In this document: one piece after another, positions 5,642 through 29,240 of the stretch
How the letters are laid out: each line of letters starts with the position of its first letter
Position numbering within the stretch: position 1 is the first letter of the stretch
From: Blastococcus tunisiensis
GTDB taxonomy: Bacteria > Actinomycetota > Actinomycetes > Mycobacteriales > Geodermatophilaceae
Reading direction: 5' to 3'
NCBI RefSeq assembly: GCF_900112815.1
Contig: NZ_FOND01000032.1
Coordinates: 1 to 33,300, forward strand
DNA: 33,300 bases
Made by a program: the position numbers and the translations under genes
The notes under the pieces: model-generated
Seen by the model: only the letters and a program-made list of their open reading frames with translations
Told to the model about the DNA's origin: nothing
Database searches by the model: none

Positions 5642-5650
5642 CGACCCCTC

Positions 5651-7372: not shown

Positions 7373-7393
7373 AGCGAAACGCTAGCATGCCAG
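7373..7393 (+). promoter_or_regulatory. AGCG-AAA-CGCT repeat and CTAGCATGYCAG box, copy 2
   Basis: AGCGAAACGCT (7373-7383) is an inverted repeat with an AAA centre. It overlaps CTAGCATGCCAG (7382-7393). Both lie immediately downstream of the predicted -10, over the expected transcription start: a repressor-type operator position between the GntR gene and the operon. Confidence 0.6.
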
Positions 7394-7407
7394 TTGGGAG
7401 ACAGTTC

Positions 7408-8901: not shown

Positions 8902-8903
8902 CC

Positions 8904-9452: not shown

Positions 9453-9487
9453 TGACCTCGACCCCCGACGCACGGAAGGCGAACCCG

Positions 9488-11585: not shown

Positions 11586-11637
11586 CCTGCCCGTCCCGAT
11601 CCGTCCGCCCCTGATCCACCCCACCAGGAGGAATCCC

Positions 11638-12255: not shown

Positions 12256-13109
12256 GCGACACCCCCGTCTGGGTCGCCCTTGGCGACGTGCCGCACACCG
12301 TGGAGTACATCGACGTCGGTCCGTGGCGCACCCGCGTCCTGCAGGCCGGCGCCGGGGAACCGCTGGTGCTGATGCCCGGCACCGGTGGCCACCTGGAGGC
12401 CTACGCCCACAACATCGGACCGCTGTCCGAGCACTTCAGGGTGATCGCCTACGACTACCCGGGGCACGGGTACACCACCCACGCCACGAGCAACCTCGAG
12501 CTGCCCGACTACGTCGAGCACCTCGCCGGCCTGCTCGACGTCCTGGGCGTGGCCAGGGCGCACCTCAGCGGGGAGTCCCTCGGCGGGTGGGTGGCGTTGA
12601 AGTTCGCCGCCGCCCACCCCGACCGGACCGCGCGTCTGGTGCTCAACACCCCGGGCGGGACGATGGCCCGCCCGGAGGTGATGGAGCGGATCCGCAGCCT
12701 CTCCCAGGCGGCCGCGGACGATCCCAGTGATGCGAACATCCGGGCCCGGCTGGAATGGCTGATGGCCGACCCGGCAACCGTCACTGACGAATTGGTGGCC
12801 ATCCGCCGGGCCATTTACGCCCGGCCCGGTTTCGCCGAGTCCATGCGACACCTGCTGTGCCTGCAGGACCCCGAGATCCGTCGCCGGAACCTCGTCACCG
12901 ACGAGGAGCTGGCGGCGGTGCCCCACGGGGCGATGGTGATCTGGACGTCGGACGACCCCTCCGGCCCCGCCGGCGTGGGCATGGACATGGCCGAGAAGAT
13001 CCCCGGCGGTCGGTTCGAGTTCATCGACGGGGCAGGGCACTGGCCGCAGTGGGAGCAGCGGGCGGCGTTCAACCAGCTGGTCATCGACTGGCTGACGAAG
13101 GAGGGATGA
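12252..13109 (+). CDS. Alpha/beta hydrolase, probable meta-cleavage product (C-C bond) hydrolase, copy 1
   Basis: 285 residues of the alpha/beta-hydrolase fold: LVLMPGTGGHLEAY (oxyanion region), nucleophile S109 in GESLGG, acid at D234/D235 (WTSDDP) and H263 in GAGHWPQWEQ. The cap region contains ARPEVMERIRS and LQDPEIRRRNLVT, shared with the paralogue at 15709-16563. In MhpC, BphD and relatives this fold hydrolyses 2-hydroxy-6-oxo-dienoates produced by extradiol cleavage, releasing an acid and 2-hydroxypentadienoate, the substrate of MhpD. The ATG overlaps the previous stop (ATGA, 12252-12255), so it is translationally coupled. The substrate side chain cannot be inferred. Confidence 0.87.
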   Translation: MSDTPVWVALGDVPHTVEYIDVGPWRTRVLQAGAGEPLVLMPGTGGHLEAYAHNIGPLSEHFRVIAYDYPGHGYTTHATSNLELPDYVEHLAGLLDVLGVARAHLSGESLGGWVALKFAAAHPDRTARLVLNTPGGTMARPEVMERIRSLSQAAADDPSDANIRARLEWLMADPATVTDELVAIRRAIYARPGFAESMRHLLCLQDPEIRRRNLVTDEELAAVPHGAMVIWTSDDPSGPAGVGMDMAEKIPGGRFEFIDGAGHWPQWEQRAAFNQLVIDWLTKEG

Positions 13110-13207: not shown

Positions 13208-14221
13208 ATGGTGAGCGATCAGCCGGCCGGTCGTCGTCGGCACGGGACGGAACCGCTGTCCCGCCATGTCGTGCTGGCGTCCGGCGACCTCGACGAGGCC
13301 CGCCGCGGCATCGGGAACGTCTTCGTGCCACACCAGGTCGACGTCGCCGGCCCGGGAGTGGTGGCCGCCCGGCTGCACGCCGTCCAGCTCGACCGGGTCA
13401 CGTTCGCCTACTCGCGGTACGGCGCCCCCGTCGAGATCGGCGGGCTCGGGGCCATGGGGCCGTGCTACCACCTCAACGTCCTGCACCGGGGCGCGGTCCG
13501 GTCGTGGCGCGGACGGGACGAGGTGGACCAGTCGCGCCGCGGTGAGGGCGTCGTCTTCACCCCGGACGAGGGGTGGCGGATGAGCTGGGGCAGCGACTGT
13601 GCCCAGGTAGCGGTCCGCATCGACCAGCAGGCGCTGCACCGGCACTTCGAGCGCACCGTCGGCCGCCCCAGTGGCCGGTCGATCGTCTTCCGTTTCGCCC
13701 TCGACGAGAGCCCGGCGGTCCGCAGCTTCGTGTCCCTGCTGAGCAGCATCGTGACCGAGCTCGACACGACCGCCGAGAGCTGGCTCTCCAGCCGGCTGAT
13801 GGTCGCCCAGGTCGAGGACTTCGTCATGAGCGGACTGCTGGCCGCCCAGCCGCACGACCACTGCGACGCCCTCGCCGCCCCGCCCGGGCCGAGCCGGCCG
13901 CGGCACGTCCGGCGGGCGATGGACCTCATGGTCGAGCGCCCCGACGACCCGCTGACGACGACCGACCTCGCCGATGCGGCCGGGGTGAGCGTCCGCACCC
14001 TGCAGGCGGCGTTCCACAGCCACGTCGGGATGTCCCCGATGGAGTTCCTGCGTGACGTCCGGCTGGAGCGGGTGCACCGGGAACTGGCGGACGGGGGCGC
14101 CCACACCACGGTGACCGCCGTGGCGCTGCGCTGGGGCTTCGGCCACCTCGGCCGTTTCGCCGTGGCCTACCGGCGCAAGTACGGCCGCTCCCCGTCGGAC
14201 ACGTTGCGCTCGGGCGGCTGA
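13208..14221 (+). CDS. AraC-family transcriptional regulator
   Basis: 337 residues. The N-terminal about 200 residues form an AraC-binding-like sensor domain (RHVVLASGDLDEARRGIGNV, later EGVVFTPDEGWRMSWGSDC). A double helix-turn-helix occupies about 240-335: PLTTTDLADAAGVSVRTLQAAF, MSPMEFLRDVRLERVH, then VTAVALRWGFGHLGRFAVAYRRKYG. ATG 13208 is chosen because GGAG precedes it by about 7 bases; ATG 13106, overlapping the hydrolase stop, is possible but would add a Pro/Arg-rich stretch unlike the family. It is the last gene of the plus-strand run, so it is probably expressed with the pathway and activates it or the divergent LLM/hydrolase region at 15386-15708. Confidence 0.9.
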   Translation: MVSDQPAGRRRHGTEPLSRHVVLASGDLDEARRGIGNVFVPHQVDVAGPGVVAARLHAVQLDRVTFAYSRYGAPVEIGGLGAMGPCYHLNVLHRGAVRSWRGRDEVDQSRRGEGVVFTPDEGWRMSWGSDCAQVAVRIDQQALHRHFERTVGRPSGRSIVFRFALDESPAVRSFVSLLSSIVTELDTTAESWLSSRLMVAQVEDFVMSGLLAAQPHDHCDALAAPPGPSRPRHVRRAMDLMVERPDDPLTTTDLADAAGVSVRTLQAAFHSHVGMSPMEFLRDVRLERVHRELADGGAHTTVTAVALRWGFGHLGRFAVAYRRKYGRSPSDTLRSGG

Positions 14222-14272: not shown

Positions 14273-15385
14273 TCAGCCGGCGTTCGGCTCCTCACCGGGG
14301 AGCTTCAGACCCTTGAGCGCCGGGATGACGTTCTTGGAGTACAGGTCGTACGAGCGCTTCGTCTGCTGCTCGGTGAGCGAGCCGAAGGTGCCCCAGACAA
14401 TGATGTTGCCACACTCGAGCTCCTCGGCCTGGGCGACGAGCTTGTCCCGGACCGTCTCCGGCGAGCCGACGCAGATGATCCCGGCGTCGTTGAGGTCCTT
14501 CCAGCTCACGTTGTCCTGGACGAAGGGCCGGAAGAACGACTGGTAGTACTCGTAGCCCTTCGGGACGTTGTCGAGGTCCTCGAAGATGGCGTGCGTGCGG
14601 AAGAGCCCGAACAGGTGGTCCAGAGCCGGCTCGGCGAGGTCGTTGGCCTCGGCGTCGGTCGGGGCCACGAAGATGTTGCGCATCACCGCGACCCGGTCGG
14701 GCGCCGTCGAGTTGCCGGCCTCGCGGGCGGCCTTGCGGTACCGGTCGAACATGTCCTTGGTGTCCGGGACCGGCAGGAAGGTGTGGGCCATCTTGTAGCC
14801 CTGGGTGCCGGCCCACTCGGTGGTCGCCGGGCTGAGCGCGGTGATCCACACCGGCGGGTTCGGCTGCTGGATCGGCTTCGGCCAGACCGCGACGTCGTCG
14901 TAGTCCCAGAAGCGGCCGTGGTGGGTGAACGACGGGTTGCGCCACGCCTCGTGGATGAGCTGCATGCCCTCCTCGAACCGGGGGCGCGTCTCCTCCATCG
15001 GGATGCCGGCCTTGGAGAACTCCAGCTCGTCCACGCCGCGGCCCATGCCCACCTCGAGGCGGCCGTGGGTGAGGTAGTCGAGCATGGCCGCCTCTTCGGC
15101 GAGCCGCAGTGGCTCGTGGAACGGGATGATGTTGGCCATCACGCCCAGTCGGATGTTCTTGGTCCGCGCGGCCACCGCCGCGACGAGGAGGTTCGGCGAC
15201 GGGCTCACCGTGTAGGCGGTGAAGTGGTGCTCGCTGAAGAAGATGCCGTCGAAGCCCTGGTCCTCGGCCCCGACCCAGGTGTCGAAGTGCCAGTCGTACA
15301 GCTCCGAGCAGAGCTCCGGGCTGAAGTTCTCCGCCCGCTTGTCGTAGGGGTAGTTGAAGATGTCGAACATCCAGGACTTGACCAC
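14273..15385 (-). CDS. LLM-class flavin-dependent monooxygenase
   Basis: 370 residues from GTG 15385 (VVKSWMFDIFNYPYD), supported by AGGAG at 15391-15395 with a 5-base spacer; the internal ATG five codons later is less likely. It has the luciferase-type barrel: GFDGIFFSEHHFTAYTVSPSPN, IIPFHEPLRLAEEAAMLDYLTHGRLEVGMGRG, PVWITALSPATTEWAG and GSPETVRDKLVAQAEELECGNIIVW. The conserved SEHHF and the length suit FMN-dependent monooxygenases rather than F420 enzymes. It is divergent from the second C-C hydrolase operon across 323 bases. An oxygenative step on a ring or side chain is likely, but the substrate is not known. Confidence 0.87.
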   Translation of the reverse strand: MVKSWMFDIFNYPYDKRAENFSPELCSELYDWHFDTWVGAEDQGFDGIFFSEHHFTAYTVSPSPNLLVAAVAARTKNIRLGVMANIIPFHEPLRLAEEAAMLDYLTHGRLEVGMGRGVDELEFSKAGIPMEETRPRFEEGMQLIHEAWRNPSFTHHGRFWDYDDVAVWPKPIQQPNPPVWITALSPATTEWAGTQGYKMAHTFLPVPDTKDMFDRYRKAAREAGNSTAPDRVAVMRNIFVAPTDAEANDLAEPALDHLFGLFRTHAIFEDLDNVPKGYEYYQSFFRPFVQDNVSWKDLNDAGIICVGSPETVRDKLVAQAEELECGNIIVWGTFGSLTEQQTKRSYDLYSKNVIPALKGLKLPGEEPNAG

Positions 15386-15591: not shown

Positions 15592-15708
15592 GACCGCAGC
15601 AGGGGGCAGGCCGCCCGCGGCCGCGGAGTGAACGCGACGTCGGAGCCCTTCCCCTCGAGTGGCCGCGGGTCCCTCGACGTCGCCTCCGACCAGATCTGGA
15701 GATCACCG

Positions 15709-16563
15709 ATGACCGTGTGGACGGACCTCACCGGGCTGGAGTTCAGCGTCAGCACCGTCGACGTCGGCGGGGTGCCCACGCGGAGCCTGCAGGCCGGCTC
15801 GGGCCCGCCGTTGGTCTTCCTGCACGGCACCAGCGGGCACCTCGACGGCTTCAGCCGCAACATCGCCGCACACGCGGAGCACTTCACCGTGCACGCCATC
15901 GACATGCTCGGCCACGGGTATACCGGCAAGCCCGACCGTCCGTACACGATCCCCACCTACGTCGAGCACCTGCTGGGGTACCTGGACGCCTGCGGCGTGG
16001 AACGTGCGCACCTGGCGGGCCAGTCCCTGGGCGGCTGGGTCGCCGCCTGGGCGGCTGCGGAGCACCCCGACCGGGTGCGCTCGCTGTCGCTGCTCGCCCC
16101 CGGGGGGACCGTGGCGAAGCCCGAGGTGATGAACCAGATCCGCACCTCGACCCTCGCGGCGGTGGAGAACAGCGACCCGGCCGGCACCCGGCGGCGGCTC
16201 AAGTGGCTGATGGCCCACCCCGGGACCAGCGTGACCGACGAACTGGTCGCCATCCGGCACGCCATCTACCAGCAGCCGGAGATGAAGCGGAACGTCGGGA
16301 ACATCCTCGTCCTGCAGGACCTCGACGTCCGTACCGAGAACCTCATGACCGAGGAACGGCTGGGGCGCATCCAGGCCCCGACGCTGGTGGTGTGGACCAC
16401 CGACGACCCCACGAGCGAGATCGCCGAGGGGCACTTCTGGGCGGACTCCATCCCGGGCTCCCGGTTCGAGCTGATCGAGGACGCCGGCCACTGGCCGCAC
16501 TACGAGCAACCGGACCGGTTCAACGCCCTGCACCTGGACTTCCTGCTCTCCACGCTCCCGTGA
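15709..16563 (+). CDS. Alpha/beta hydrolase, probable meta-cleavage product (C-C bond) hydrolase, copy 2
   Basis: 284 residues: LVFLHGTSGHLDGFSRN (oxyanion loop), nucleophile S106 in GQSLGG, acid D232/D233 in WTTDDP and H261 in DAGHWPHYEQ. It is a paralogue of 12252-13109, with aligned blocks throughout including the cap (KPEVMNQIRTS, TDELVAIRHAIY, LQDLDVRTENL). ATG 15709 has GGAG 7 bases upstream; the frame is open to 15628 but no earlier start has a ribosome-binding site. It is probably the ring-fission product hydrolase for the second MhpB-type dioxygenase (17417) or for a different substrate. It is followed 58 bases later by the SDR gene. Confidence 0.87.
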   Translation: MTVWTDLTGLEFSVSTVDVGGVPTRSLQAGSGPPLVFLHGTSGHLDGFSRNIAAHAEHFTVHAIDMLGHGYTGKPDRPYTIPTYVEHLLGYLDACGVERAHLAGQSLGGWVAAWAAAEHPDRVRSLSLLAPGGTVAKPEVMNQIRTSTLAAVENSDPAGTRRRLKWLMAHPGTSVTDELVAIRHAIYQQPEMKRNVGNILVLQDLDVRTENLMTEERLGRIQAPTLVVWTTDDPTSEIAEGHFWADSIPGSRFELIEDAGHWPHYEQPDRFNALHLDFLLSTLP

Positions 16564-16621: not shown

Positions 16622-17368
16622 ATGGACCTGGGCATCGCCGGCAGGCGGGCAGCCGTGGCCGCATCCACCCGTGGGCTGGGCTTCGCGACGGCGCAGGCGC
16701 TGGCGGCCGCCGGTGTGCAGGTCGCCATCTGCGGTCGGCAGCGGGACAGCGTCGAGCAGGCCGCAGCCCGCATCGGTGCAGCGGCCATGCCGATCGTCGC
16801 CGACGTCAGCACGCCGGAGGGCGCGACGCGGTTCGTCGAGGGCGCCGAGCGTGTCCTGGGCGGGATCGACATCCTGGTCGTGAACGTGCCGGGGACGCCG
16901 GCCGGGACCTTCGCGTCCACCGCGCTGGAGGAGTACGGCCCCGCGCTGCAGAACCACGTGCTCAGCGGGGTGGCGATGTGCAAGGCGGCCGTGCCCGGCA
17001 TGCAGGCGCGCGGCTGGGGGCGGGTCGTGGCGATCACGTCGGTCGGCGTCCGCCAGCCCTTCCCCGACCTGATCCTGTCCAACACCGGCCGCTCCGGGCT
17101 GACCGCGTTCCTCAAGACGCTGGCACTGGAGGTGGCGCCCGACGGCGTCACGGTGAACAGCGTCCAGCCCGGCCTGCACCGGACGGAGCGGCTGGAGAGC
17201 TGGGCGGGGGACCGCCTGCCCGACATGGCGGCGGAGGTGCCGGCGAAGGCCGTCGGCGAGCCGGCCGACCTCGGCGCGGTGGTGGCGTTCCTCTGCTCCG
17301 AGCCGGCCCGCTACGTCACCGGGACGGCGGTCCCCGTCGACGGGGGCCTGTACCGCGGGCTGCTGTAG
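16622..17368 (+). CDS. SDR-family protein with altered active site
   Basis: 248 residues with Rossmann-fold SDR architecture: cofactor-side ASTRGLGFA (residues 15-23) in place of the usual TGxxxGxG, NVP near 88-90 in the NNAG position, catalytic-type S140 (AITSVG), and the typical end AVVAFLCSEPARYVTGTAVPVDGG. The YxxxK pair is missing: LILSNTGRSGL puts S153/N154 and R157 where Tyr and Lys should be. A minor SDR subgroup with an SN..R motif is known to me only as uncharacterised oxidoreductases. It may therefore bind NAD(P) without classical alcohol dehydrogenation, or use another mechanism. AGGA just upstream supports ATG 16622. It is in an operon with the hydrolase and convergent with mhpB copy 2. 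Confidence 0.85.
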   Translation: MDLGIAGRRAAVAASTRGLGFATAQALAAAGVQVAICGRQRDSVEQAAARIGAAAMPIVADVSTPEGATRFVEGAERVLGGIDILVVNVPGTPAGTFASTALEEYGPALQNHVLSGVAMCKAAVPGMQARGWGRVVAITSVGVRQPFPDLILSNTGRSGLTAFLKTLALEVAPDGVTVNSVQPGLHRTERLESWAGDRLPDMAAEVPAKAVGEPADLGAVVAFLCSEPARYVTGTAVPVDGGLYRGLL

Positions 17369-17416: not shown

Positions 17417-18361
17417 TCAGCGGCCGCGGGTCTCCGCGGTGGTGACCCCGAACCCGGCGATCCACTCCGGGATCGCCTCGTAGAAGGTGGAGCGGACCTC
17501 GTAGGGCCCCATGGCACCGAGGGCGGCGTGGACCGCGATCCAGGTGCGCACCTCGTGGGAGGAGTGCCCGGCCTCCTGGACGAAGGACTCGTTGCTCCAC
17601 GAGTCGAGCTGCGCGAGGTCACCGCCGCCGAGCACCTCGAGGAAGCGCCGATCCCACTCCGGGTTGAGCGGCATGAGGTCCGACGTTCCCGCCGCGTAGG
17701 CCAGCGCCGCGTCGAAGACGCGGTCCTGCCGCGCGGCCCGCTCCTCCGGCGTGGGGTTCCGCCCGGAGATCAGCCGTTCGACCACCTCGGGCGGGGCCTC
17801 GGTCAGCCGGGGGACCGGCGGGTCGTGCGACAGCCCGCCGGAGCCGAGCAGGAGCACCCGGCGGTCGAGTGCGGCCGCGGCGCGGCCGACGGCCTCGCCC
17901 AGCAGCCGGACGCGGCTCACCGGTCCGAGCGGCTCGGCGACGCAGTTGATGAACACCGGCACCACGGGAACCGTGTCGATGCCGCCGAAGAGCAGGTCGA
18001 GGGGTTGGGCGCAGCCGTGGTCGACGGTCATCCGCTCGGAGAACGCCACGTCCACGCCGGCGTCCAGCACGGCCGAGGCCAGGGACCGCGCTGCGGCCCG
18101 GTCGACCGGCAGGGGCCCGGCCGAGGTCCCGTAGTCGCCGATCGCGGTCGCCTGGGCGCCGATGCAGAACGAGGGCATCAGGTCGTAGAGGAAGCCGTTG
18201 TAGTGGTCGGGCGCGAACACGACCACGAGGTCGGGATCGACGTCGGCCACGAAGGCCCGGGCGTCGTCGAGGGCGGCCTCCACCCGGGCGACGACCTCGT
18301 CGGCCGGCTGGTGGACGCCCATGACGGGCGTGTGCGACAACGCGCAGAGAGCTAGCGACAT
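17417..18361 (-). CDS. mhpB: MhpB-type extradiol ring-cleavage dioxygenase (LigB family), copy 2
   Basis: 314 residues, the same length as E. coli MhpB. It contains CALSHTPVMG, FAPDHYNGFLYDLMPSFCIG, catalytic H115 (VDHGCAQPL) and H179 (GSGGLSHDPP) and IPEWIAGFG. It is clearly homologous to copy 1 (9488) but diverged throughout, so this is not a recent duplication; the two may cleave different catechols. It lies downstream of the acyl-CoA dehydrogenase on the same strand, with only the 39-codon ORF (18352-18471) between. Side-chain processing (CoA-transferase, dehydrogenase) and ring cleavage may thus share a transcript. The ribosome-binding site is weak, consistent with translational coupling. 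Confidence 0.92.
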   Translation of the reverse strand: MSLALCALSHTPVMGVHQPADEVVARVEAALDDARAFVADVDPDLVVVFAPDHYNGFLYDLMPSFCIGAQATAIGDYGTSAGPLPVDRAAARSLASAVLDAGVDVAFSERMTVDHGCAQPLDLLFGGIDTVPVVPVFINCVAEPLGPVSRVRLLGEAVGRAAAALDRRVLLLGSGGLSHDPPVPRLTEAPPEVVERLISGRNPTPEERAARQDRVFDAALAYAAGTSDLMPLNPEWDRRFLEVLGGGDLAQLDSWSNESFVQEAGHSSHEVRTWIAVHAALGAMGPYEVRSTFYEAIPEWIAGFGVTTAETRGR

Positions 18362-18471
18362 CGTGGTCGGGTTCCCATCCCAGCCGCTCCGGGGACCCGG
18401 GCGCGGCTGTTGCCGTCGGACATGGACTGCTGTGTTCCTGCCGGGCTGCGTTCCTGTCGTGCGGGGGTCAT
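18352..18471 (-). CDS. Small ORF bridging two genes (39 aa), unrecognised
   Basis: Its ATG (18471) overlaps the acyl-CoA dehydrogenase stop as ATGA, and its TAG (18352-18354) falls just inside mhpB copy 2. The peptide (MTPARQERSPAGTQQSMSDG...) is Arg/Ser/Gly-rich with no recognisable domain. It may be a real small gene, or simply a path by which ribosomes reach the weak mhpB start. Weakly supported. Confidence 0.25.
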   Translation of the reverse strand: MTPARQERSPAGTQQSMSDGNSRARVPGAAGMGTRPRCR

Positions 18472-19628
18472 GAGTAGGGCAGTCCTCCCCGCTCGACGAG
18501 CTGCCGGGCGATGACCGAGCGCTGGATCTCGTTGGTCCCCTCGCCGACCACCATCAGCGGTGCGTCGCGGTAGAACCGCTCGACCGGGTACTCGGTGGAG
18601 TAACCGTTGCTGGCGTGGATGCGCACCGCCTGCTGGCAGAGCTCCAGGCACACCTCCGAGGCGTAGAGCTTGGCCATCCCGGCCTCGAGGTCGCACCGGG
18701 CGCCGCCGTCGAGGCGGTCCGCCGCCGCGAAGACCAGCATCCGGGCGGCCTCGAGCTTCACCGCCATGTCCGCCAGGTAGTTGCCGATCGACTGGTGCTG
18801 CCAGATCGGCACCCCGAACGAGACGCGTTGCTGGGAGTAGGCCAGGGAGGCCTCGAACGCGGCGCGGGCGACGCCGGTGGCCCGCGCGGCGACCTGGATC
18901 CGGCCGAGTTCGAGGCCCGTCATCATCTGCGTGAAGCCGGCGCCCACCGCGCCGCCGAGCACCCGCGCGCCCGGCACGCGGCAGTCGTCGAAGGAGATCT
19001 CGCAGGTCTCGACGCCCTTGTAGCCGAGCTTCGAGAGGTCCCGGGAGACCGTCATGCCCGGCCCCTGCTCCACGAGCAGGATGCTCATGCCGCGGTGCGG
19101 CGGGGTCGCCCCGGGGTCGGTCTTGCACAGCAGGGCGACCAGCCCGGCGCGGCGGGCGTTCGTGATCCACATCTTCGTGCCGGTGACGACGTAGTCGTCA
19201 CCGTCGGCGCGGGCGACGGTGCGCATGCTCTGCAGGTCCGAGCCGCCGTCGGGCTCGGTCAGGGCCATGGTCGCCCGCAGCTCCCCGGTGGCCAGCGCGG
19301 GCAGGTACCGGTGCCGCTGCTCGTCGGTCCCGAAGCGGGACAGCAGGTTGACCACGACGCCGTGCCCACCCATGGCCCCGGCCAGGCTCATCCAGCCCCG
19401 GGCGAGTTCCTCGGTCACCGCGGCGAAACACGCCGTGGAGACGCCGAGGCCGCCGAACTCCTCGGGCACGAGCAGCCCGTAGACGCCGAGGACCTTCATC
19501 CGCTCGATCAGCGCCCCGGGATAGGTGTTGGCGTGTTCCAGCTCGTCCACGACCGGCGCGACCTCGCGCTCCACGAACTGCCGGACGGTCGCGACGATGG
19601 CCCGTTCCTCGTCGTTCAGCTGTGTCAT
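18468..19628 (-). CDS. Acyl-CoA dehydrogenase
   Basis: 386 residues with the standard FAD acyl-CoA dehydrogenase layout: an N-terminal helical domain (LNDEERAIVATVRQFVEREV), the middle beta domain (ALTEPDGGSDLQSM, then YVVTGTKMWITNA) and a C-terminal helical domain (LAYSQQRVSFGVPIWQHQSI). The catalytic Glu lies in VVGEGTNEIQRSVIARQL. It introduces a C2-C3 double bond into an acyl-CoA and passes electrons to ETF. Its ATG overlaps the CoA-transferase stop (ATGA, 19628-19625), so the two are translated together; the transferase probably makes its substrate. This implies a substrate with a carboxylated side chain such as a propionate, which is inference. Confidence 0.93.
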   Translation of the reverse strand: MTQLNDEERAIVATVRQFVEREVAPVVDELEHANTYPGALIERMKVLGVYGLLVPEEFGGLGVSTACFAAVTEELARGWMSLAGAMGGHGVVVNLLSRFGTDEQRHRYLPALATGELRATMALTEPDGGSDLQSMRTVARADGDDYVVTGTKMWITNARRAGLVALLCKTDPGATPPHRGMSILLVEQGPGMTVSRDLSKLGYKGVETCEISFDDCRVPGARVLGGAVGAGFTQMMTGLELGRIQVAARATGVARAAFEASLAYSQQRVSFGVPIWQHQSIGNYLADMAVKLEAARMLVFAAADRLDGGARCDLEAGMAKLYASEVCLELCQQAVRIHASNGYSTEYPVERFYRDAPLMVVGEGTNEIQRSVIARQLVERGGLPYS

Positions 19629-20872
19629 GGTCCCTCTCCGGACGCGTGGGATGCCGCGGCCGGTCCGGCCGGCGGAACTGCCGTGGGGCCCAGGGCCGCC
19701 GCGATGTCGGCCTCGTCGAGGCCCGCCCAGCGCAGCACCGACCTGGTGTGCTCGCCGACGGACGGCACGGGACGCATCACCGCCGGACGGGCGGCGCCGG
19801 TCAGCGGGGGTTCGAGGGCCACGAGCGGGCCGGCCGGCGAGCCGACCTCCCGCAGGCGGGAGCGGGACTGCAGGGCCGGGTGGCGGCCGAGGGCCGTCAC
19901 CTCGGTGATGCGCGCGTGTGCGACCCCGGCGCGGTCCAGCAGGTCCTCCAGTGCACCCGCGGTGAGCCGGCCGATGCGCCGGTCGATCCGCTCCTGCAGC
20001 TCGGCCCGGTTCCGCACCCGACAGGTGTTCGTGGCGAACCGGGCGTCGACGGTCATCGACGGGTCGGCGAGCACCACGTCGCAGAACCGGGACCACTCGC
20101 GGTCGTTCTGCACGGCGAGGACGATCTGCTCGCCGTGGGCGGTGGAGAAGGGGCCGTAGGGGGCTATCGCGGCGTGCGCCGCACCGTTGCGGGGCGGCGC
20201 CGCCCCGCTGTAGGTCCCGTAGTAGAACGGGAAGCCCATCCACTCGGCGAGGGAGTCGAAGAGTGACACCTCGACGGAGCTGCCCTGGCCGGTCCGCTCC
20301 CGCTCGTAGAGCGCGGCGAGGATGCCGCTGAAGGCGTAGCTGCCGGCCGCGATGTCGGCGACCGGGATCCCGGCCTTCGCCGGCTCGTCCGGGGTGCCGG
20401 TGACCGACAGCAGGCCCGCCTCGGCCTGGACCAGGAGGTCGTACGCCTTGCGGTCCCGGTAGGGACCCTCCGTCCCGTACCCGGAGACGTCGCAGGTGAT
20501 CAGGCGGGGACGGGTGGCCCGGACCGACTGCGAGCCCAGGCCCAGCCGCTCGGCTGCTCCGGGGGCCAGGTTCTGCACGAAGACGTCCGCCCGGTCGAGC
20601 AGCTGCTCCACGGCGGTCACGGCGCCGGGCTGCTTCAGGTCCAGCGCCACCGACTCCTTCGAGCGGTTCAGCCAGACGAAGTGGCTGGACAGACCCTCGG
20701 CCGTCTCGTCGTAGCCCCGGGCGAAGTCGCCTCCGCCCGGCCGCTCGATCTTGATCACCCGGGCGCCGAGATCTGCCAGCTGCCGGGTGGCCAGAGGTGC
20801 GGCGACGGCCTGCTCGAGAGTGACCACGAGCAGGCCGGTCAGCGGGAGAGGGCGCGACGTCCGCTCAGTCAC
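19625..20872 (-). CDS. CaiB/BaiF (class III) CoA-transferase
   Basis: 415 residues from GTG 20872. Family hallmarks are LLVVTLEQAVAAPLATRQLADLGARVIKIERPGGGD, NRSKESVALDLK, catalytic Asp D145 in KAYDLLVQAEAGL, GIPVADIAAGSYAFSGILAALYERE, and EVSLFDSLAEW. These enzymes move CoA between carboxylic acids through aspartyl-CoA intermediates. The start lies only about 15 bases from an AT-rich stretch (20881-20898), so the mRNA may be nearly leaderless; no ribosome-binding site is visible. It is first of a minus-strand unit with the acyl-CoA dehydrogenase and mhpB copy 2, and divergent from a GntR/FCD gene that is its likely regulator. Confidence 0.92.
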   Translation of the reverse strand: MTERTSRPLPLTGLLVVTLEQAVAAPLATRQLADLGARVIKIERPGGGDFARGYDETAEGLSSHFVWLNRSKESVALDLKQPGAVTAVEQLLDRADVFVQNLAPGAAERLGLGSQSVRATRPRLITCDVSGYGTEGPYRDRKAYDLLVQAEAGLLSVTGTPDEPAKAGIPVADIAAGSYAFSGILAALYERERTGQGSSVEVSLFDSLAEWMGFPFYYGTYSGAAPPRNGAAHAAIAPYGPFSTAHGEQIVLAVQNDREWSRFCDVVLADPSMTVDARFATNTCRVRNRAELQERIDRRIGRLTAGALEDLLDRAGVAHARITEVTALGRHPALQSRSRLREVGSPAGPLVALEPPLTGAARPAVMRPVPSVGEHTRSVLRWAGLDEADIAAALGPTAVPPAGPAAASHASGEGP

Positions 20873-21011: not shown

Positions 21012-21737
21012 GTGGAGCCTGGCGCACCCGGTCCGGACGCGCGCGGCGGTCGCACCGCGGCCGCGGACTTCCGGAAGCGGCGGCGCGCCCACCTCAGCGA
21101 CGAGGTGGCCTCCTACATCCGCGACCTCATCATGTCCGGCGAGGTCCGGCAGGGGGAGTTCCTGAGGCTCGAGCGGATCGCCGAGGAGGTCGGCGTGAGC
21201 GCCACCCCGGTGCGCGAGGCGCTGCTCTCCCTGCGCGGTGAGGGCTTCGTCAGCCTGGAGGCCCACCGCGGGTTCGTCGTCGCCCCGCTGAGCCGGCAGG
21301 ACGTCGTCGACCTGTTCCGGGTCCAGGCCGATGCGGCGGCGGAGCTGACCGGCCGGGCTGCCGAGCGCATGTCACCCGAGGTGGTGGATCGACTCGCCGA
21401 GTTGCAGGAGCAGCTGGAGGAGGCGGCCCGGCGGGGTGCGGCCGGGGAGATGGAGGACCTCAACTTCCGGTTCCACCGCCTCGTCTACCGGTCGGCGGAC
21501 TCCGCGAAGCTGATCTGGGTGCTGGGCAGCGTGGCCCGGTACGCGCCGCGGCGGTTCTACGCGAGCATCCACGGGTGGCAGGGCGCGTCGGTGGCGGAGC
21601 ACGGCGCGATCATCGACGCGTTGCGGCACCGGGACGCCGAGAAGGCCCGCGGCACGATGCGCAGCCACGTGGACCACGCCGGCGAGCTGCTCGTCGCCCA
21701 CCTGGAGAGTCGGGGCTTCTGGGCGGGCGCCTCGTGA
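21012..21737 (+). CDS. GntR-family regulator with FCD domain, second
   Basis: 241 residues from GTG 21012, which has AAGGGGAG just upstream; the longer open frame back to 20751 crosses the control region and is rejected. The winged helix lies near residues 25-85 (LSDEVASYIRDLIMSGEVRQ, then ERIAEEVGVSATPVREALLSLRGEGFV). It is followed by an FCD domain (FRVQADAAAELTGRAAERM, NFRFHRLVYRSADS, EHGAIIDALRHRDAEKARGTMRSHVDHAGELLV). Transcribed away from the CoA-transferase unit, it probably represses that unit and itself until a pathway acid or CoA ester appears. It resembles the regulator at 6499 only at family level. Confidence 0.9.
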   Translation: MEPGAPGPDARGGRTAAADFRKRRRAHLSDEVASYIRDLIMSGEVRQGEFLRLERIAEEVGVSATPVREALLSLRGEGFVSLEAHRGFVVAPLSRQDVVDLFRVQADAAAELTGRAAERMSPEVVDRLAELQEQLEEAARRGAAGEMEDLNFRFHRLVYRSADSAKLIWVLGSVARYAPRRFYASIHGWQGASVAEHGAIIDALRHRDAEKARGTMRSHVDHAGELLVAHLESRGFWAGAS

Positions 21738-22078: not shown

Positions 22079-23161
22079 ATGGACTTCATCGTCGGCAATC
22101 TCGCGCACATCGCCGAACTCGACCAGGTCAAGCTGGCCGAGGACGTCGGCATCACCCACTACGGCGCCGGTCAGGGGCCGCTGCACTCCAGTGACCCCTT
22201 CCAGTTCCTGGCGCTGGCCGCCCGGGAGACCTCCACGATCAAGCTCGGGCCGTACGTGCTGGACCCGCTGACCCGGATCGCACCCTCGGTCGCGAACTCC
22301 CTGGCGACGCTGAACCTGGTCTCCGAGGGGCGCGGTTTCCTCGGCCTGGGCACCGCGAACTCCGCGCTGCACGCGATGGGCCGCAAGAGCGCCAAGCCCG
22401 AGGAACTGGCCGAGGCGGTGCAGGTGATCAGCGCCCTCGTCCGCGGTGGCCGGATCGACCACACCTGGCGTGGTGAGACCAAGGCGGCGCAGCTGCTGGG
22501 CGCGCCGGACGCCGGGTTCTTCCGGACCGACCCGGACTTCCCGATCTACATCGCCGCGGGCGGGCCGAAGGGTGTCGCCAATGCGGCCAGGTACGCCGAC
22601 GCCATCCTCTACTGCGCCGGCCCGAACCCGGAGTTCATCAAGCTGATCCGGCGCGAGCTCGAGAAGGAGGTGGCCGCGGCGGGCCGCGCCCCGGGCAGCG
22701 TCAAGCTGATTGGGCTCACCTTCTTCTACCAGTTGCGCAACGGTGAGACGTGGGAGGACGCCCTGACCAAGGGCTTCGGCACCACGGCCGCGATGGGCTC
22801 GACGATCAGCGACATGGGCTACCTCAAGAAGTTCCGCGAGGAGATCGGCGCCGACATCGTCGACCAGTCGATCGCCATGGTGCAGAACACGATCATGGGG
22901 GATCCCGGGGAGATGGGTGCCGAGAGCCACCTGGACCAGTGGGACACCTACGCCAAGGGCTTCGACGAGCGGCACATGCCGTACATCTCCAAGGAGATCC
23001 TGGACTTCTGGACGCTGTACGGGTCGCCCGACGACCTGCTGGAGAAGGCGCAGCTGATGATCGAGAGCGGGCTGGACGCGCTCAGCGTCTTCCTCTACAA
23101 CCCGTTCACCGCGCGCCGGGACATCGCCGACATCGGCTCGTCGATCATCGCCCGGATGTGA
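22079..23161 (+). CDS. LLM-class oxidoreductase, probably F420-dependent
   Basis: 360 residues; ATG 22079 with GAGGAG 6 bases upstream. It is a paralogue of 10512-11585, with co-linear blocks [72 protein letters not shown] and [30 protein letters not shown]. These fit the F420-dependent methylenetetrahydromethanopterin-reductase-like branch of the LLM superfamily. Its stop overlaps the start of fbiC (GTGA, 23158-23161), so the enzyme and the synthase for the F420 chromophore are translated together. That is direct circumstantial support for F420 as its cofactor. The likely reaction is hydride transfer to an aromatic or ring-opened intermediate; the substrate is unknown. Confidence 0.88.
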
Positions 23162-25740
23162 GCGACGACCTCCGGGCCGCCGGCACCGACCTGCGGCCCA
23201 CCGACAGTGCGATGCGCCGGGTCCTCCGCCGGGCCCGGGACTCGGTCGCCCTGGACCGCACCGAGGCCGAGGTGCTGCTCACCGCCCGGGGGGAGGCGCT
23301 CGTCGACCTGTCGGCCAGCGCCGCCCGGGTGCGCGACGCCGGACTGGTCGCCGCCGGGCGCCCGGGCGTCATCACCTACTCCCGCAAGGTGTTCATCCCG
23401 CTGACCCGGCTGTGCCGCGACCGGTGCCACTACTGCACCTTCGCCACCGTGCCGCACCGTGTCCCGGCGCCCTTCCTGGAACGCGAGGAGGTGCTGGAGA
23501 TCGCCCGCGCCGGCGCCGCGGCCGGCTGCAAGGAGGCGCTGTTCACCCTCGGCGACCGGCCGGAGGACCGGTGGGAGGCAGCCGGGACCTGGCTGGAGGA
23601 GCGCGGGTACGCCAGCACGCTGGAGTACCTGCGGGCCTGCGCCATCGCGGTGCTGGAGGAGACCGGCCTGCTGCCGCACCTGAACCCCGGTGTCCTGTCC
23701 TGGGAGGAGCTGTCCCGGCTCAAGCCGGTGGCGCCGTCGATGGGCATGATGCTGGAGACCACCGCCGAGCGGTTGTGGTCGGAGCCCGGCGGCCCGCACC
23801 ACGGGTCCCCGGACAAGGAGCCGGCGGTCCGGCTGCAGGTGCTGCACGACGCCGGGCGCACCGCCGTCCCGTTCACGACCGGCATCCTCATCGGCATCGG
23901 CGAGACCCTGGCCGAACGGGTCGACGCGCTGTTCACGCTGCGCGAGATCGCCCGCGCCTACCGCGGCGTGCAGGAGGTGATCATCCAGAACTTCCGCGCC
24001 AAGCCCGACACCGCGATGCGCGGCTCCGCCGACGCCGATGTCGAGGACCTCGCCGCGACCGTCGCCGTCGCCCGGCTGCTGCTGGGACCGGACGTCCGCA
24101 TCCAGGCGCCCCCGAACCTGATCGGTGAGGAGCACCGGATGGTGCTCGACGCCGGCATCGACGACTGGGGCGGGGTGTCCCCGGTGACGCCCGACCACGT
24201 GAACCCCGAACGCCCGTGGCCCGGGCTGGACGAGCTGGCGGCGCGGACCGTCGCCGCCGGGTTCACGCTGCGGGAGCGACTCACGGTCTACCCGCCCTAC
24301 CAGCGCGAGCCCTGGCTGGACCCGCGGGTGGCCGCGCACGTCGCCGCCCTCGCCGGGCCTGACGGACTGGCGCGCGAGGACGCCGTCCCGGTCGGCCGAC
24401 CCTGGCAGGAACCCGAGTTCGGGACCGCCGGCACCGGGCGGGTGGACCTGCACGCCGAGGTCGACACCCTGGGCCGGACCGACGACCGCCGCAGTGACTT
24501 CGACACCGTCTACGGCGACTGGGACACCGTCCGCGGGCACGCCGCGCGCACCGGCGCGCCGACGCCGGCGCCGCTGGCGGCGGAGGTCCGGGCCGCGCTC
24601 CGGCACGCGGAGCGGGACCCGGCCGGGTTGTCCGACGCCGGGGCGCTCGCCCTGCTCGACGCCGAGGGTCCCGCGCTGGAGGCGCTGTGCCGGCTGGCGG
24701 ACGACGTGCGCCGGGCCACCGTGGGGGACGACGTCACGTACGTGGTGAACCGGAACATCAACTTCACCAACGTCTGCTACACCGGCTGCCGGTTCTGCGC
24801 GTTCGCCCAGCGGCGCACCGACGCCGACGCCTACACGCTCTCGCTGGCCCAGGTCGGCGACCGGGTGGACGAGGCCTGGGCGGCGGGGGCGACCGAGGTG
24901 TGCCTGCAGGGCGGCATCCACCCCGACCTGCCGGGCACCGCCTACTTCGACATCGCCGCGGAGGTCAAGCGGCGGACGCCGGGCATGCACGTGCATGCCT
25001 TCAGCCCGATGGAAGTGGTGAACGGCGCGACCCGGACCGGGCTGAGCATCACCGACTGGCTCACCGCGGCGAAGGAGGCCGGGCTGGACACCATCCCCGG
25101 CACGGCGGCCGAGATCCTCGACGACGACGTCCGCTGGGTGCTGACCAAGGGGAAGCTGTCGGCGGCCACCTGGCTGGACGTGGTCGGAACCGCCCACCGG
25201 CTGGGCATCCGTTCCTCGGCCACGATGATGTACGGCCACGTCGACGCGCCGCACCACTGGGTGGCGCACCTGCGCACGCTGGCCGCGCTCCAGGACGACA
25301 CCGGCGGGTTCACCGAGTTCGTGCCGCTGCCGTTCGTGCACGCCAACGCCCCGCTCTACCTGGCCGGCGTCGCCCGGCCCGGACCGACCGCGGCGCAGAA
25401 CCGCGCCGTGCACGCCGTCGCCCGGCTGCTGCTGCACGGCCGCATCGACAACATCCAGTGCTCGTGGGTGAAGCTCGGGAACGGCGGCGTGCAACAACTG
25501 CTGACCGGCGGGGCCAACGACATGGGCGGCACCCTCATGGAGGAGACGATCAGCCGGATGGCGGGTTCCCAGCACGGCTCCGAACGGACCGTTCCCCAGT
25601 TGGAGGAGATCGCCACGGCCATCGGCCGCCCGACCCGGCAGCGCACGACCACCTACGGTCCGGTGCCGGCCGAACGACTGTCCACCCAGCAGCGCCTCAC
25701 CCGGCTGCTGCCCCTGATCCCCGCGGAGAGCGCCTCATGA
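23158..25740 (+). CDS. fbiC: FO synthase (7,8-didemethyl-8-hydroxy-5-deazaflavin synthase), fused CofG-CofH
   Basis: 860 residues, close to the 856 of mycobacterial FbiC. It contains two radical-SAM domains. The CofG half has C86, C90 and C93 in [10 protein letters not shown], and the CofH half has C540, C544 and C547 in [10 protein letters not shown]. Further blocks are [35 protein letters not shown], then [29 protein letters not shown] and [12 protein letters not shown]. The enzyme joins tyrosine to 5-amino-6-ribitylaminouracil to make FO, the chromophore of F420. GTG 23158 overlaps the LLM stop; the open frame further upstream is only the shadow of that gene. The mhpD start overlaps its stop (ATGA). 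fbiA and fbiB are not in the window and must be elsewhere in the genome. Confidence 0.96.
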
Positions 25741-26564
25741 CCGCAGACCGGTTCCCCGTTGCCGACGTCCCGAGCACGGCGACGATCGACGCCGCAGCCG
25801 CCCGCCTGCAGCAGGCCGCCCACACCGGCGTGCCCTGCGCACCGGTGCGGGACCTGCTCCCGATGAGCCTGGAGGCCGGCTACGCCGTGCAGCAGGTCCT
25901 CACCGCCGGTGCGCTGGCCGCCGGGCGGCGGATCGTCGGCCGCAAGATCGGGTTGACCAATCCGAAGGTGCAGGCGCAGCTGGGGGTCGACACACCGGAC
26001 CTCGGCGTGCTCTTCGAGGACATGGCCGTCGCCGACGAGGGGACGGTCGAGGTCGACCAGCTGCTGCAGCCGCGGATCGAGGCCGAGGTGGCGCTGGTCC
26101 TGGGCGCCGACCTCGACGGCGACGACCTGTCGCCCGCACGGGTCCGCGCGTCGGTGGACCGGGTGGTGGCCTCGCTGGAGATCGTGGACAGCCGGATCGC
26201 CGGCTGGGACATCACCCTGGTGGACACCGTGGCCGACAACGCGTCCAGCGGCCGGTTCGTGCTCGGGGGGAACCCGGTGCCGTTGCGGGACCTGGACCTG
26301 CGTGCCGTGCAGATGTCGATGCTGGAGGACGGCCGGGAGGTCTCCTCCGGGACCGGCGCGGACTGCCTGGGTGATCCGCTGGCCGCGCTGACCTGGCTGG
26401 CGGCCGCCGCCCGGGACCTGGGCGCACCCCTGCGCGCCGGGGACGTCGTCCTCTCCGGTGCTCTCGGCCCGATGGTGCCGGTCCGGCCCGGCGCCACCTA
26501 TTCCGCCGAGGTGACCGGACTGGGGTCGGTCACCGTCACCTTCACCGACAGGGGGACCGCGTGA
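25737..26564 (+). CDS. mhpD: 2-keto-4-pentenoate hydratase (2-hydroxypentadienoate hydratase)
   Basis: 275 residues of the MhpD/DmpE/HpaH hydratase family, part of the FAH-like fold. K70 in GRKIGLTN and metal-binding acids E115, E117 ([10 protein letters not shown]) and E148 (SLEIVDSRI) are visible, as are the closing blocks [20 protein letters not shown] and [18 protein letters not shown]. It adds water to 2-hydroxypenta-2,4-dienoate, the product released by the C-C hydrolases, giving 4-hydroxy-2-oxovalerate for MhpE. The ATG overlaps the fbiC stop and the next gene overlaps its own stop, so it is locked inside the coupled operon. Confidence 0.94.
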
Positions 26565-27508
26565 CCACCAAGGTCGCCATCATCGGTTCGGGCAACATCG
26601 GCACCGACCTGATGATCAAGATCCATCGATTGTCCGAGGAGCTCGAGGTCGCCGCGCTGGTCGGCATCGACCCCGACTCCGACGGCCTGGCCCGCGCACA
26701 GCGGATGGGCGTGCCGACCACGGCGGACGGGGTCGCCGGGCTGATCGCGATGCCGCAGTTCGACGACATCACGATCGTGCTCGACGCCACGTCGGCGCGG
26801 GCGCACCTGGCCAACGCCGAGGCCCTGGCCCCGTACGGGAAGCGGCTGATCGACCTGACGCCGGCCGCCATCGGCCCCTACGTCGTGCCGACGGTCAACC
26901 TCGACGAGCACCTGGCCGCCGGGAACGTGAACATGGTGACCTGCGGCGGGCAGGCCACCATCCCGGTCGTGGCCGCCATCGCCGCGGTCACGCCGGTGCA
27001 CTGGGCCGAGATCGTCGCCTCGATCTCCTCCCGGTCGGCCGGCCCCGGCACCCGGGCCAACATCGACGAGTTCACCGAGACGACGGCACGGGCGATCGAG
27101 ACCGTCGGCGGGGCGGCCCACGGCAAGGCGATCATCGTGCTGAACCCGGCCGACCCCCCGCTGATCATGCGGGACACGGTGCTGTGCATCGTCGACGACG
27201 GCGACCGCGACGCGATCACGACGTCGGTGGAGGAGATGGTCGCGCGGGTCCAGGCCTACGTCCCCGGCTACCGGCTCAAGCAGCAGGTCCAGTTCACCCC
27301 GCTGCCGGCGGCCGAACCGCTGCACGTCCTGCTCGGCGACGCCCCCCCGGCCGATCGCCTGCAGGTGACGGTGTTCCTCGAGGTCGAGGGCGCCGCCCAC
27401 TACCTCCCCGCCTACGCGGGCAACCTCGACATCATGACCTCGGCCGCCGTGCGGGTGGCCGAGCGGATCGCAGCCGGCACGTCCCAGCTCCTGGAGACCC
27501 GCTCATGA
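26561..27508 (+). CDS. mhpF: Acetaldehyde dehydrogenase (acylating)
   Basis: 315 residues of the MhpF/DmpF family. NAD-binding GSGNIGTDL lies at residues 9-17, the catalytic Cys is C128 in [12 protein letters not shown], and [16 protein letters not shown] and [18 protein letters not shown] are conserved. It oxidises acetaldehyde to acetyl-CoA with NAD and CoA, taking the aldehyde through a channel from its aldolase partner MhpE, encoded next. GTG 26561 overlaps the mhpD stop (GTGA). A truncated second copy of the 3' end remains at 31591-31806. Confidence 0.95.
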
Positions 27509-28560
27509 CCAGCATCTACGTCCAGGACGTCACCCTGCGGGACGGCATGCACGCCGTCCGGCACCGGTACAGCGTCGCGCAGGTGCGGTCCATCGCCGCC
27601 GCGCTGGACGCCGCCGGCGTGGACGCGATCGAGGTGACCCACGGGGACGGCCTGGCCGGTGCCAGCCTCACCTACGGGCCGGGCAGCCACACCGACGGCC
27701 AGTGGATCGCCGCCGCGGCCGAGGTGGTGACGCGGGCCAAGCTCACCACCCTGCTGCTGCCCGGCATCGGGACCATCGCCGACCTCGAGCGCGCCCACGC
27801 CCTCGGCGTGAGCTCGGTGCGGGTGGCCACCCACTGCACCGAGGCCGACGTCTCCGCCCAGCACATCGCCAAGGCCCGGGACCTGGGGATGGACGTGTCC
27901 GGCTTCCTGATGATGAGCCACATGAGCGACTCGGCCGCGCTGGCGAAGCAGGCGAAGCTCATGGAGTCCTACGGGGCGCACTGCGTCTACGTCACCGACT
28001 CCGGTGGGCGTCTCACCATGGACGGGATGCGCGAGCGGGTCCGCGCCTACCGGGACGTCCTCGACGAGAGCACCCAGATCGGTGTGCACGCCCACCAGAA
28101 CCTCTCCCTGGCCGTGGCGAACTCCGTCGTCGCCGTGGAGGAGGGCGCCTACCGGGTCGACGCCTCACTGGCCGGTCAGGGCGCCGGTGCCGGCAACTGC
28201 CCGATCGAGCCGTTCGTCGCCGTCGCGACCCTCCAGGGCTGGAGTCACGGCTGCGACGTCTTCGCCCTGCAGGACGCCGCCGACGACCTCGTCCGTCCGC
28301 TGCAGGACCGGCCCGTCCAGGTCGACCGGGAGACCCTCACCCTCGGATACGCCGGGGTCTACTCCAGCTTCCTCCGGCACGCCGAGAAGGCCGCCGCGAC
28401 CTTCGGGCTGGACACCCGCGACGTCCTCGTGGAGGTCGGCCGCCGCCGCCTGGTCGGCGGCCAGGAGGACATGATCGTCGACGTCGCGCTCGACCTCGTC
28501 GCCGCCCGCACGACCACCGGCGCGGGGCCCGCCGCCGGCACGGCCGCCGCTGCGCGGTGA
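27505..28560 (+). CDS. mhpE: 4-hydroxy-2-oxovalerate aldolase, copy 1
   Basis: 351 residues of the MhpE/DmpG family. The catalytic R12-D13 and H16 are in [11 protein letters not shown], the metal-binding histidines are in [16 protein letters not shown], and [15 protein letters not shown] is the usual active-site loop. A C-terminal communication domain carries the dehydrogenase contacts. It splits 4-hydroxy-2-oxovalerate into pyruvate and acetaldehyde. The start overlaps the mhpF stop (ATGA, 27505-27508) and its own stop overlaps fbiD (GTGA). The second complete copy at 31803-32858 is, by eye, about 90% identical in protein. Confidence 0.95.
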
Positions 28561-29240
28561 TCCGGCCCGGCTGGACGGTGCTCGTCCCGGTCAAGGCGCT
28601 GCACCGGGCCAAGACCCGCCTGCGGCCGTCCACCGGCCGGGACACGGCGGCGCTGGCGCTGGCCTTCGCCCTCGACACCGTCGAGGCCGCCGGCCGGGCC
28701 CGCGGCGTCGGCACCGTCCACGTGGTGACGTCGGACCCGCTCGTCGCAGCGGAGGCGGTGGGGATGGGCGCCGCGGTCCTCCCCGATCTCGGCGGCGGGG
28801 ACCTCAACCTCGCGGTGAGCCGGGCCGCGGAGCTGCTGACCGGGTCGGACGCCGGGCTCGGGCTCGCGGTGCTCCCCGCGGACCTGCCCGGGCTGGCCCC
28901 CGTCGACCTCGACCTCGCCCTGGCGGCGGCGGCGGCCCATGGCCGCGCCTTCCTACCCGATGCCCAGGGAGCCGGGACCACGCTGCTCACCGCCCGTGCG
29001 GGGCACCGACTCCGGCCCCGGTACGGCCCCGGTTCCGCCGCCGCCCACCAGGCGGAGGGAGCTCACCCGCTCGGCGTGCCGGCGCCCACGGTGCGCGCCG
29101 ACGTCGACCGCTGGGCCGATCTCCGCGCCCTGAGCCACGGCTCCTGCGGCCAACGCACACGAGAATGGCTCGACGGTCACCCGGCCCGCCGCGTCGGTAG
29201 GGGCCCGCCCGGCCGCGTCGCTGCCCCGCGTGCGCGTTGA
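28557..29240 (+). CDS. fbiD: Guanylyltransferase of F420 biosynthesis (CofC/FbiD)
   Basis: 227 residues; family members are about 210. It begins [17 protein letters not shown], the nucleotide-binding signature of CofC/FbiD, and continues with [25 protein letters not shown], the metal/nucleotide motif [16 protein letters not shown] and [23 protein letters not shown]. It activates phosphoenolpyruvate or 2-phospholactate with GTP; FbiA then transfers the product to FO. GTG 28557 overlaps the aldolase stop (GTGA). Having the second F420 gene as last member of a meta-cleavage operon, with three catabolic genes between it and fbiC, is unusual. The C-terminus after about residue 210 is Arg/Gly/Pro-rich and may be a run-on. 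Confidence 0.92.

Follow-up and report, generated by a model that had tools for sequence, protein, structure and literature searches.

The stretch of DNA considered here (the window) comprises 33.3 kb from the actinobacterium Blastococcus tunisiensis, of the family Geodermatophilaceae, and is one complete contig (C5) of the 43-contig, 5.04-Mb host genome, whose completeness is estimated at 99.7%. At positions 22079-29240 it carries six genes on one strand, in which genes for the biosynthesis of coenzyme F420 are interleaved with mhp-type catabolic genes (Table 1). A preliminary description had placed them in a single operon in the order LLM, fbiC, mhpD, mhpF, mhpE, fbiD, and this order is borne out by the profile matches and by 4-nucleotide overlaps at all five junctions; a promoter and terminator scan returned none of either. 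The encoded FbiC exceeds the cut-offs of both half-families (TIGR03550, 506.8 bits against 213.35; TIGR03551, 578.1 against 374.1) and contains two radical-SAM CxxxCxxC motifs, at residues 86 and 540, both of which are also found in the FbiC of Geodermatophilus ruber. MhpF and MhpE are adjacent and each lies above its own curated cut-off, and MhpD falls below that of its best profile, which leaves its exact hydratase equivalog unfixed. The sole solved match of FbiD is 6bwg, a 2-phospho-L-lactate guanylyltransferase. The six proteins share 82-93% amino acid identity with those of G. ruber. Because G. ruber keeps the same order without internal stops, with ratios of non-synonymous to synonymous substitution (dN/dS) of 0.11-0.47 (from 0.106 for the LLM gene to 0.465 for fbiD, the highest), the operon is neither a chance arrangement nor an assembly error. 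Overall, these comparisons and those below support a predicted catabolic pathway that has an F420-dependent step and a cofactor supply dedicated to it.

The same linkage is encountered in other members of the family. The LLM protein of the operon, LLM_D, has its closest named relatives in a Modestobacter metagenome-assembled genome (99%) and G. ruber (93%), and a relative of 86% identity in Pseudonocardia acidicola; Modestobacter and Geodermatophilus are genera of the Geodermatophilaceae. Surveys were keyed on matches to LLM_D or to LLM_B, a second such protein of the window, rather than on all fbiC loci. Of 112 family genomes, 4 (host included) have relatives of these proteins. Two of the four (G770 and G788) were taken, by match coordinates, as G. 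ruber and the Modestobacter assembly, and in each of the four mhpD, mhpF and mhpE stand beside fbiC and fbiD; the order was not seen in species without the pathway. At E<=1e-60, again with the host included, wider surveys gave LLM_D relatives in 4 of 397 genomes of the order and LLM_B relatives in 2 of 394 genomes of the class. The six genes recur in G. ruber in unchanged order, with 4-nucleotide overlaps at four of the five junctions and, with the start used, an 8-nucleotide gap at the first. In the Modestobacter-labelled assembly a 4.1-kb contig carries the 3′ part of fbiC followed by mhpD, mhpF, mhpE and fbiD, and LLM_D lies at the end of another contig. A further genome of the host's genus (G760) shows, on one strand of a single contig, LLM_B, ICH (an isochorismatase-fold protein), FbiC, NpdG and FbiD, then an ABC transporter, an IclR regulator, MhpD, MhpF and MhpE. 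Compared with the window, its LLM_B is 89% identical, its ICH 65%, its FbiC 84% and its FbiD 49%; its NpdG scores 187.4 bits with TIGR01915 (cut-off 149.8) and its FbiD 151.7 with TIGR03552. Linkage of F420 genes to this LLM family thus takes two forms, that of the host and G. ruber and that of G760, and the npdG placed between fbiC and fbiD in G760 points to use of the reduced cofactor, F420H2. The G760 region also holds an MhpA-like FAD hydroxylase split over two open reading frames (L088:5762-7647). Just upstream of the G. ruber island (L025:6576-11147) lie genes for caprolactamase/hydantoinase-like alpha and beta subunits, under those cut-offs, and another isochorismatase-family gene. A molybdenum (Mo) hydroxylase downstream of G. 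ruber fbiD was considered as a sign of an N-heterocyclic substrate and set aside, as the adjacent PucR regulator suggests purine use.

A check raised by the preliminary description was whether the host has another fbiC and fbiD. It does: a second fbiC, 72% identical to the operon copy, lies on contig C26, and a second fbiD above the cut-off lies on contig C21; a weak third FbiD-family match on C33 (33.7 bits, below the cut-off) is not counted. The host has one fbiA (C28), which overlaps fbiB, and one npdG above the cut-off, on C33. With another fbiC, another fbiD and one fbiA-fbiB pair elsewhere, the operon genes are extra copies and not the sole ones of the host, and the island carries exactly the two biosynthesis genes that lie outside that pair. 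A tree of 32 FbiC proteins unites the island copies of host, G. ruber and G760 in one clade (100/100), and eight housekeeping FbiCs of Geodermatophilaceae, with the housekeeping copies of these three genomes among them, group apart from it (100/100); G. ruber and G760 have two fbiC genes each, with a housekeeping fbiC in G760 besides the island copy. Judged from this tree, the island FbiC is of separate origin, which rules out a recent duplication of the host's own fbiC, and that origin is probably foreign. The operon FbiD is just 49.5% identical to the housekeeping copy. This divergence, the dN/dS of fbiD and the variant 3PG-F420 described from Paraburkholderia rhizoxinica (PMC8498797) would fit an island FbiD of different substrate, giving a chemically distinct F420 with another phospho-acid tail that is used by the pathway LLMs alone; the host has no extra fbiA, however, and this reading is considered very improbable.

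Outside the family, the LLM genes belong to a module that is found on plasmids and chromosomes alike, and that comprises a GntR regulator, LLM_B and ICH together with an MhpA or HpaB hydroxylase, MhpB and a hydrolase. Relatives of LLM_B (72-75% identity) are present on 13 plasmid records, 12 of Rhodococcus and one of Gordonia. The eight plasmid regions inspected have GntR, LLM_B and ICH, with a transporter of MFS or similar type, an FAD hydroxylase, MhpB and a hydrolase nearby; the Gordonia region also has MhpD, MhpF and MhpE. At the LLM_D locus of P. acidicola there is no ICH, and two Mo-hydroxylase subunit genes lie upstream. There (L003:153-3593), the Mo-hydroxylase FAD and 2Fe-2S subunit genes, a hydrolase and the 86% LLM_D are possibly one operon. 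In Pseudonocardia bannensis (L005:4803-6263) a 6-phosphogluconate dehydrogenase gene, a possible source of reducing power, stands between the LLM and HpaB parts. Plasmid 4 of Rhodococcus opacus PD630 holds within 25 kb two MhpB/hydrolase modules, two ICH-type genes, LLM_B, an acetolactate-synthase-like gene and transporters. The simplest history would be that a widespread LLM-mhp module acquired its own fbiC and fbiD in the Geodermatophilaceae.

The LLM gene coupled to fbiC had been described as Mer-like and of a type that uses F420, and the solved structures agree with this prediction. LLM_D matches 11 distinct solved sequences, ten of them named as Mer or as F420-dependent enzymes (Mer, Fgd, hMAD and Adf) and the eleventh as 'Luciferase family protein'; LLM_B matches the same 11. 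Mer is the top solved match of both (75 bits for LLM_D, 73 for LLM_B), unlike LLM_A and LLM_C of the window, which match bacterial luciferase best. By their nearest characterised relatives, LLM_B and LLM_D are therefore predicted to be of F420 type. An F420H2-dependent reduction is suggested because their solved matches are of Mer/F420 type and because NpdG is encoded in the G760 operon. The opposite direction would have the LLMs act as F420-dependent dehydrogenases, as Fgd, Adf and hMAD do, oxidising an alcohol or aldehyde intermediate so that the pathway yields F420H2. Those three enzymes are indeed among the solved matches, and an alcohol dehydrogenase gene follows ICH in four of the eight plasmid regions; Mer nevertheless scores highest, and the NADPH-dependent F420 reductase of G760, which supplies F420H2, would be redundant beside an F420-reducing LLM, which makes the dehydrogenase reading unlikely.

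By its gene content, the remainder of the window is an aromatic catabolic island (Table 1). Its paralogue pairs are LLM_B and LLM_D, MhpB1 and MhpB2, and the two alpha/beta hydrolases (50%). The end that carries LLM_A also holds a LysR regulator, an FAH protein and a cut-off LLM. Besides the window RibBA, the host has three further RibBA-like matches and a shorter match to its C-terminal part; the window copy, conserved in G. ruber yet not the host's only one, is a possible part of the dedicated cofactor supply. Two of the host RibBA-like matches begin at the same offset of two contigs (C41:333 and C1:333) with similar scores, which could reflect a repeat or an artefact of assembly. Right after fbiD lies an IS1634-family transposase (29696-31579), followed by a second MhpE (31803-32858) with 91% identity to that of the operon, as if another mhp operon continued past the contig end; a search for repeats around this insertion sequence yielded nothing usable.

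Table 1. Features of the window, with the six genes of the operon first
Feature	Position	Strand	Evidence or remark
LLM_D, Mer-like LLM oxidoreductase, predicted F420-dependent	22079..23161	+	NF002619 92.9 bits, under Mer cut-off
fbiC (extra copy), FO synthase, CofG-CofH fusion	23158..25740	+	NF006687 1485.8 bits, cut-off 1018
mhpD-like, 2-hydroxypentadienoate hydratase	25737..26564	+	Best profile NF008461, 303 bits, cut-off 350
mhpF, acetaldehyde dehydrogenase (acylating)	26561..27508	+	TIGR03215 457.4 bits, cut-off 282.25
mhpE, 4-hydroxy-2-oxovalerate aldolase	27505..28560	+	TIGR03217 548.5 bits, cut-off 286
fbiD/cofC (extra copy), 2-phospho-L-lactate guanylyltransferase family	28557..29240	+	TIGR03552 136.4 bits, cut-off 105
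GntR regulator, immediately upstream of the operon	21012..21737	+	Start by codon model
LLM_A, LuxA/FMN-type LLM	2929..4206	-	Best solved match bacterial luciferase
RibBA, entry to flavin and FO-precursor pathway	4325..5698	-	NF006803 613.2 bits, cut-off 569; 85% in G. ruber
GntR regulator, divergent from HpaB-LLM_B operon	6499..7200	-	52-80% homologues at other LLM_B loci
HpaB-type FADH2 phenol ortho-hydroxylase	7387..8901	+	TIGR02309 485.2 bits, cut-off 480.2
Flavin reductase, HpaB partner	8898..9452	+	PF01613
MhpB1, class III extradiol dioxygenase	9452..10426	+	NF009910 483.8 bits, cut-off 291; start by codon model
LLM_B, second Mer-like LLM	10512..11585	+	53% to LLM_D
ICH, isochorismatase-fold protein, His-His-Ser replacing Asp-Lys-Cys	11572..12255	+	PF00857 and alignment
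Alpha/beta hydrolase, meta-cleavage-product hydrolase type	12252..13109	+	
AraC-type regulator	13271..14221	+	AndR-like, under that cut-off
LLM_C, LuxA/FMN-type LLM	14273..15385	-	Best solved match bacterial luciferase
Second alpha/beta hydrolase	15628..16563	+	
SDR oxidoreductase	16622..17368	+	
MhpB2, class III extradiol dioxygenase	17417..18361	-	NF009910 492.2 bits, cut-off 291; 69% to MhpB1
Acyl-CoA dehydrogenase	18468..19628	-	
CaiB-type CoA transferase	19625..20872	-	

Taken together, the genes probably encode a pathway of aerobic meta-cleavage that includes a reduction by F420H2 and has a supply of F420 to itself. Within an aerobic island for the degradation of an aromatic compound, the operon would provide the lower part, and the reduction would belong to the upper part. 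As the regulators and operon structure suggest, the operon would be induced when substrate is present; FbiC would then make FO and FbiD the activated phospho-acid tail, and the chromosomal FbiA and FbiB would complete F420. A NADPH:F420 reductase, encoded elsewhere in the host and within the operon in G760, would reduce the cofactor, and LLM_B and LLM_D may use F420H2 as the hydride donor to reduce an electron-poor C=C or C=N bond of the aromatic substrate or of an early intermediate. HpaB with its flavin reductase (an MhpA-type FAD hydroxylase in the relatives) would give a 3-substituted catechol, which MhpB would cleave, and the alpha/beta hydrolase would free the side-chain acid and 2-hydroxypenta-2,4-dienoate. 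MhpD, MhpE and MhpF would convert the latter to pyruvate and acetyl-CoA. The presence of MhpB and MhpDFE is what suggests a 3-substituted catechol that yields 2-hydroxypentadienoate.

As to the substrate, a fused lactone or lactam of the coumarin or 2-quinolone kind is put forward tentatively and with low confidence. Such compounds would fit in that their reduction, followed by opening of the ring, leads to 3-arylpropionates, which are used by MhpB-type enzymes. Two parallels, and no more than parallels, can be drawn from the literature: aflatoxins and other furanocoumarins are degraded by F420H2-dependent reductases of another family, FDR-A/B (PMC3288000), and quinoline degradation in a Rhodococcus has been proposed to proceed via 8-hydroxycoumarin to 2,3-dihydroxyphenylpropionate (PMC9029321).

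Several observations weigh against the proposed pathway or parts of it. Scores of LLM_D lie far under the Mer cut-offs (NF002619, 92.9 bits against 276; TIGR03555, 81.7 against 348.7), which excludes that it is Mer itself, and its AlphaFold model, with a mean pLDDT (predicted local distance difference test) of 42, was too poor for a fold search and was left unused. There is no npdG in the window. Since fbiC occurs in 353 of 397 genomes of the order, co-occurrence of LLM and F420 genes across genomes proves little. Two FbiC matches were found in 14 of these 397 genomes (two candidates per genome were scored; second copies were inspected for the host and G181, and some in draft genomes may be split genes), among them two family genomes, G253 and G300, that have no LLM_B or LLM_D relative. 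An additional fbiC is thus found in genomes that lack the pathway as well. Neither fbiC nor fbiD was detected, even at E<=1e-3, in the eight plasmid regions or in five regions from non-family genomes, and a search for FbiD on plasmids at E<=1e-20 gave no match; the non-family regions span 11-40 kb, some on short contigs, and genes farther out would escape. Linkage to fbiC and fbiD is thus not needed for the pathway as such, because non-family LLM modules show neither gene in the regions examined. Finally, P. bannensis has no ICH beside LLM_B, and ICH itself, with a clear isochorismatase domain (PF00857, 133.4 bits, cut-off 27), has His, His and Ser at the columns of the Asp-Lys-Cys triad of cysteine hydrolases in all 15 sequences compared. 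These represent 13 loci (that of G. ruber read across two pieces), the second copy on PD630 plasmid 4 and G760; the columns were set by alignment to solved hydrolases, with Asp and Cys clear and Lys less certain (one solved alignment shifts it). A normal cysteine amidohydrolase is thereby ruled out, simple amide hydrolysis by ICH is doubtful, and a scheme in which the substrate is reduced and its amide then hydrolysed is weakened by the missing triad and by the P. bannensis locus. ICH homologues in public records are named cysteine hydrolase or isochorismatase family.

The absence of fbiC from the regions of non-family relatives and the two family genomes with an extra fbiC and no LLM are also what would be expected if the LLMs used flavin mononucleotide (FMN) and fbiC and fbiD were hitchhikers from a foreign island, unconnected to the pathway, and most plasmid relatives are publicly annotated as 'LLM class flavin-dependent oxidoreductase'. 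Hitchhiking is, however, hard to square with five overlapping junctions, an order conserved in G. ruber, a linkage that persists in G760 rearranged and with npdG added, dN/dS values under 0.5 and solved matches of Mer/F420 type, and it is judged quite unlikely. A bolder form of the F420H2-dependent pathway has about an even chance of being right: the LLM modules would represent a new aerobic route for a non-nitro aromatic compound, on Rhodococcus and Gordonia plasmids and actinobacterial islands, of which the Geodermatophilaceae form would have captured fbiC, fbiD and in some cases npdG, coupling production of the cofactor to expression of the pathway; ICH would have a new His-His-Ser site.

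In actinobacteria, F420 is usually treated as a constitutive housekeeping cofactor. A 2021 review states that in Rhodococcus, Nocardia and Nocardioides little is known of its physiological roles beyond nitroaromatic remediation (PMC8498797). By joining the FO-forming and tail-activating steps to a degradation operon, the island opens a natural catabolic step that depends on F420 to direct testing in the type strain G. ruber DSM 45317. It further singles out a family of likely F420 reductases on plasmids, and linkage to fbiC, fbiD and npdG offers a handle for finding more F420-dependent pathways.

Among known systems, the picrate and 2,4-dinitrophenol (npd) clusters of Rhodococcus and Nocardioides invite comparison first; they are not known to carry mhp-type meta-cleavage genes. 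They likewise combine aerobic actinobacterial catabolism with F420H2 hydride transferases of the LLM superfamily, and have an F420:NADPH reductase in the same operon as these transferases, as with npdG in G760; they differ in their nitroaromatic substrates, and fbiC or fbiD within the operon is not mentioned in the available portions of these papers (PMC8498797, PMC5352752). The likeness drawn here is one of gene content. Plasmid pRHL3 of Rhodococcus jostii RHA1 (L073) resembles the island in that its fbiC and cofC overlap, with genes for an LLM, a flavin reductase and a Ddn-like, deazaflavin-dependent oxidoreductase close by, and the plasmid-encoded FGD1 of RHA1 has a locus tag near this pair (PMC5352752); it differs in that no mhp genes are annotated in 26 kb around the pair and its FbiC branches well away from the island clade. 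On a plasmid of R. opacus VOC-14, an npdG-like gene, fbiC and an FbiD-like gene follow one another. In Proteobacteria (a Leisingera plasmid, Sinorhizobium pSymA and Novosphingobium pSA2), cof genes, npdG and F420-type LLM genes likewise adjoin catabolic genes, although of other pathways (pyrimidine-like, CoA-transferase, Rieske). The Leisingera aquaemixtae plasmid (L078) has cofG-cofH-cofD-cofC-cofE-npdG and a TIGR03842 LLM beside dihydropyrimidinase, Zn hydrolase, aminotransferase and NAD(P) transhydrogenase genes, and looks like an F420-dependent reductive pyrimidine-type pathway. With the mhp (3-phenylpropionate) pathway of Escherichia coli the island shares MhpB, an MhpC-type hydrolase and MhpD-F-E; it differs by adding LLM, ICH and F420 genes, and its hydroxylase is HpaB, with MhpA-like enzymes in the relatives. 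Mer provides the nearest solved relatives of LLM_D and LLM_B, yet at scores that fall well short of membership. The earlier statement that no known pathway carries fbiC and fbiD inside an mhpDFE operon stands in that no description of them as extra copies around mhpDFE in a catabolic operon was found in the literature, judged largely from titles, abstract openings and term counts; it needs qualifying in that other plasmids, too, have cof or fbi genes next to LLM genes. F420 genes that travel with catabolic genes are not unique to this island, and such genes lie near LLM and catabolic genes elsewhere as well; what looks new is a catabolic operon in which second copies of fbiC and fbiD flank mhpDFE.

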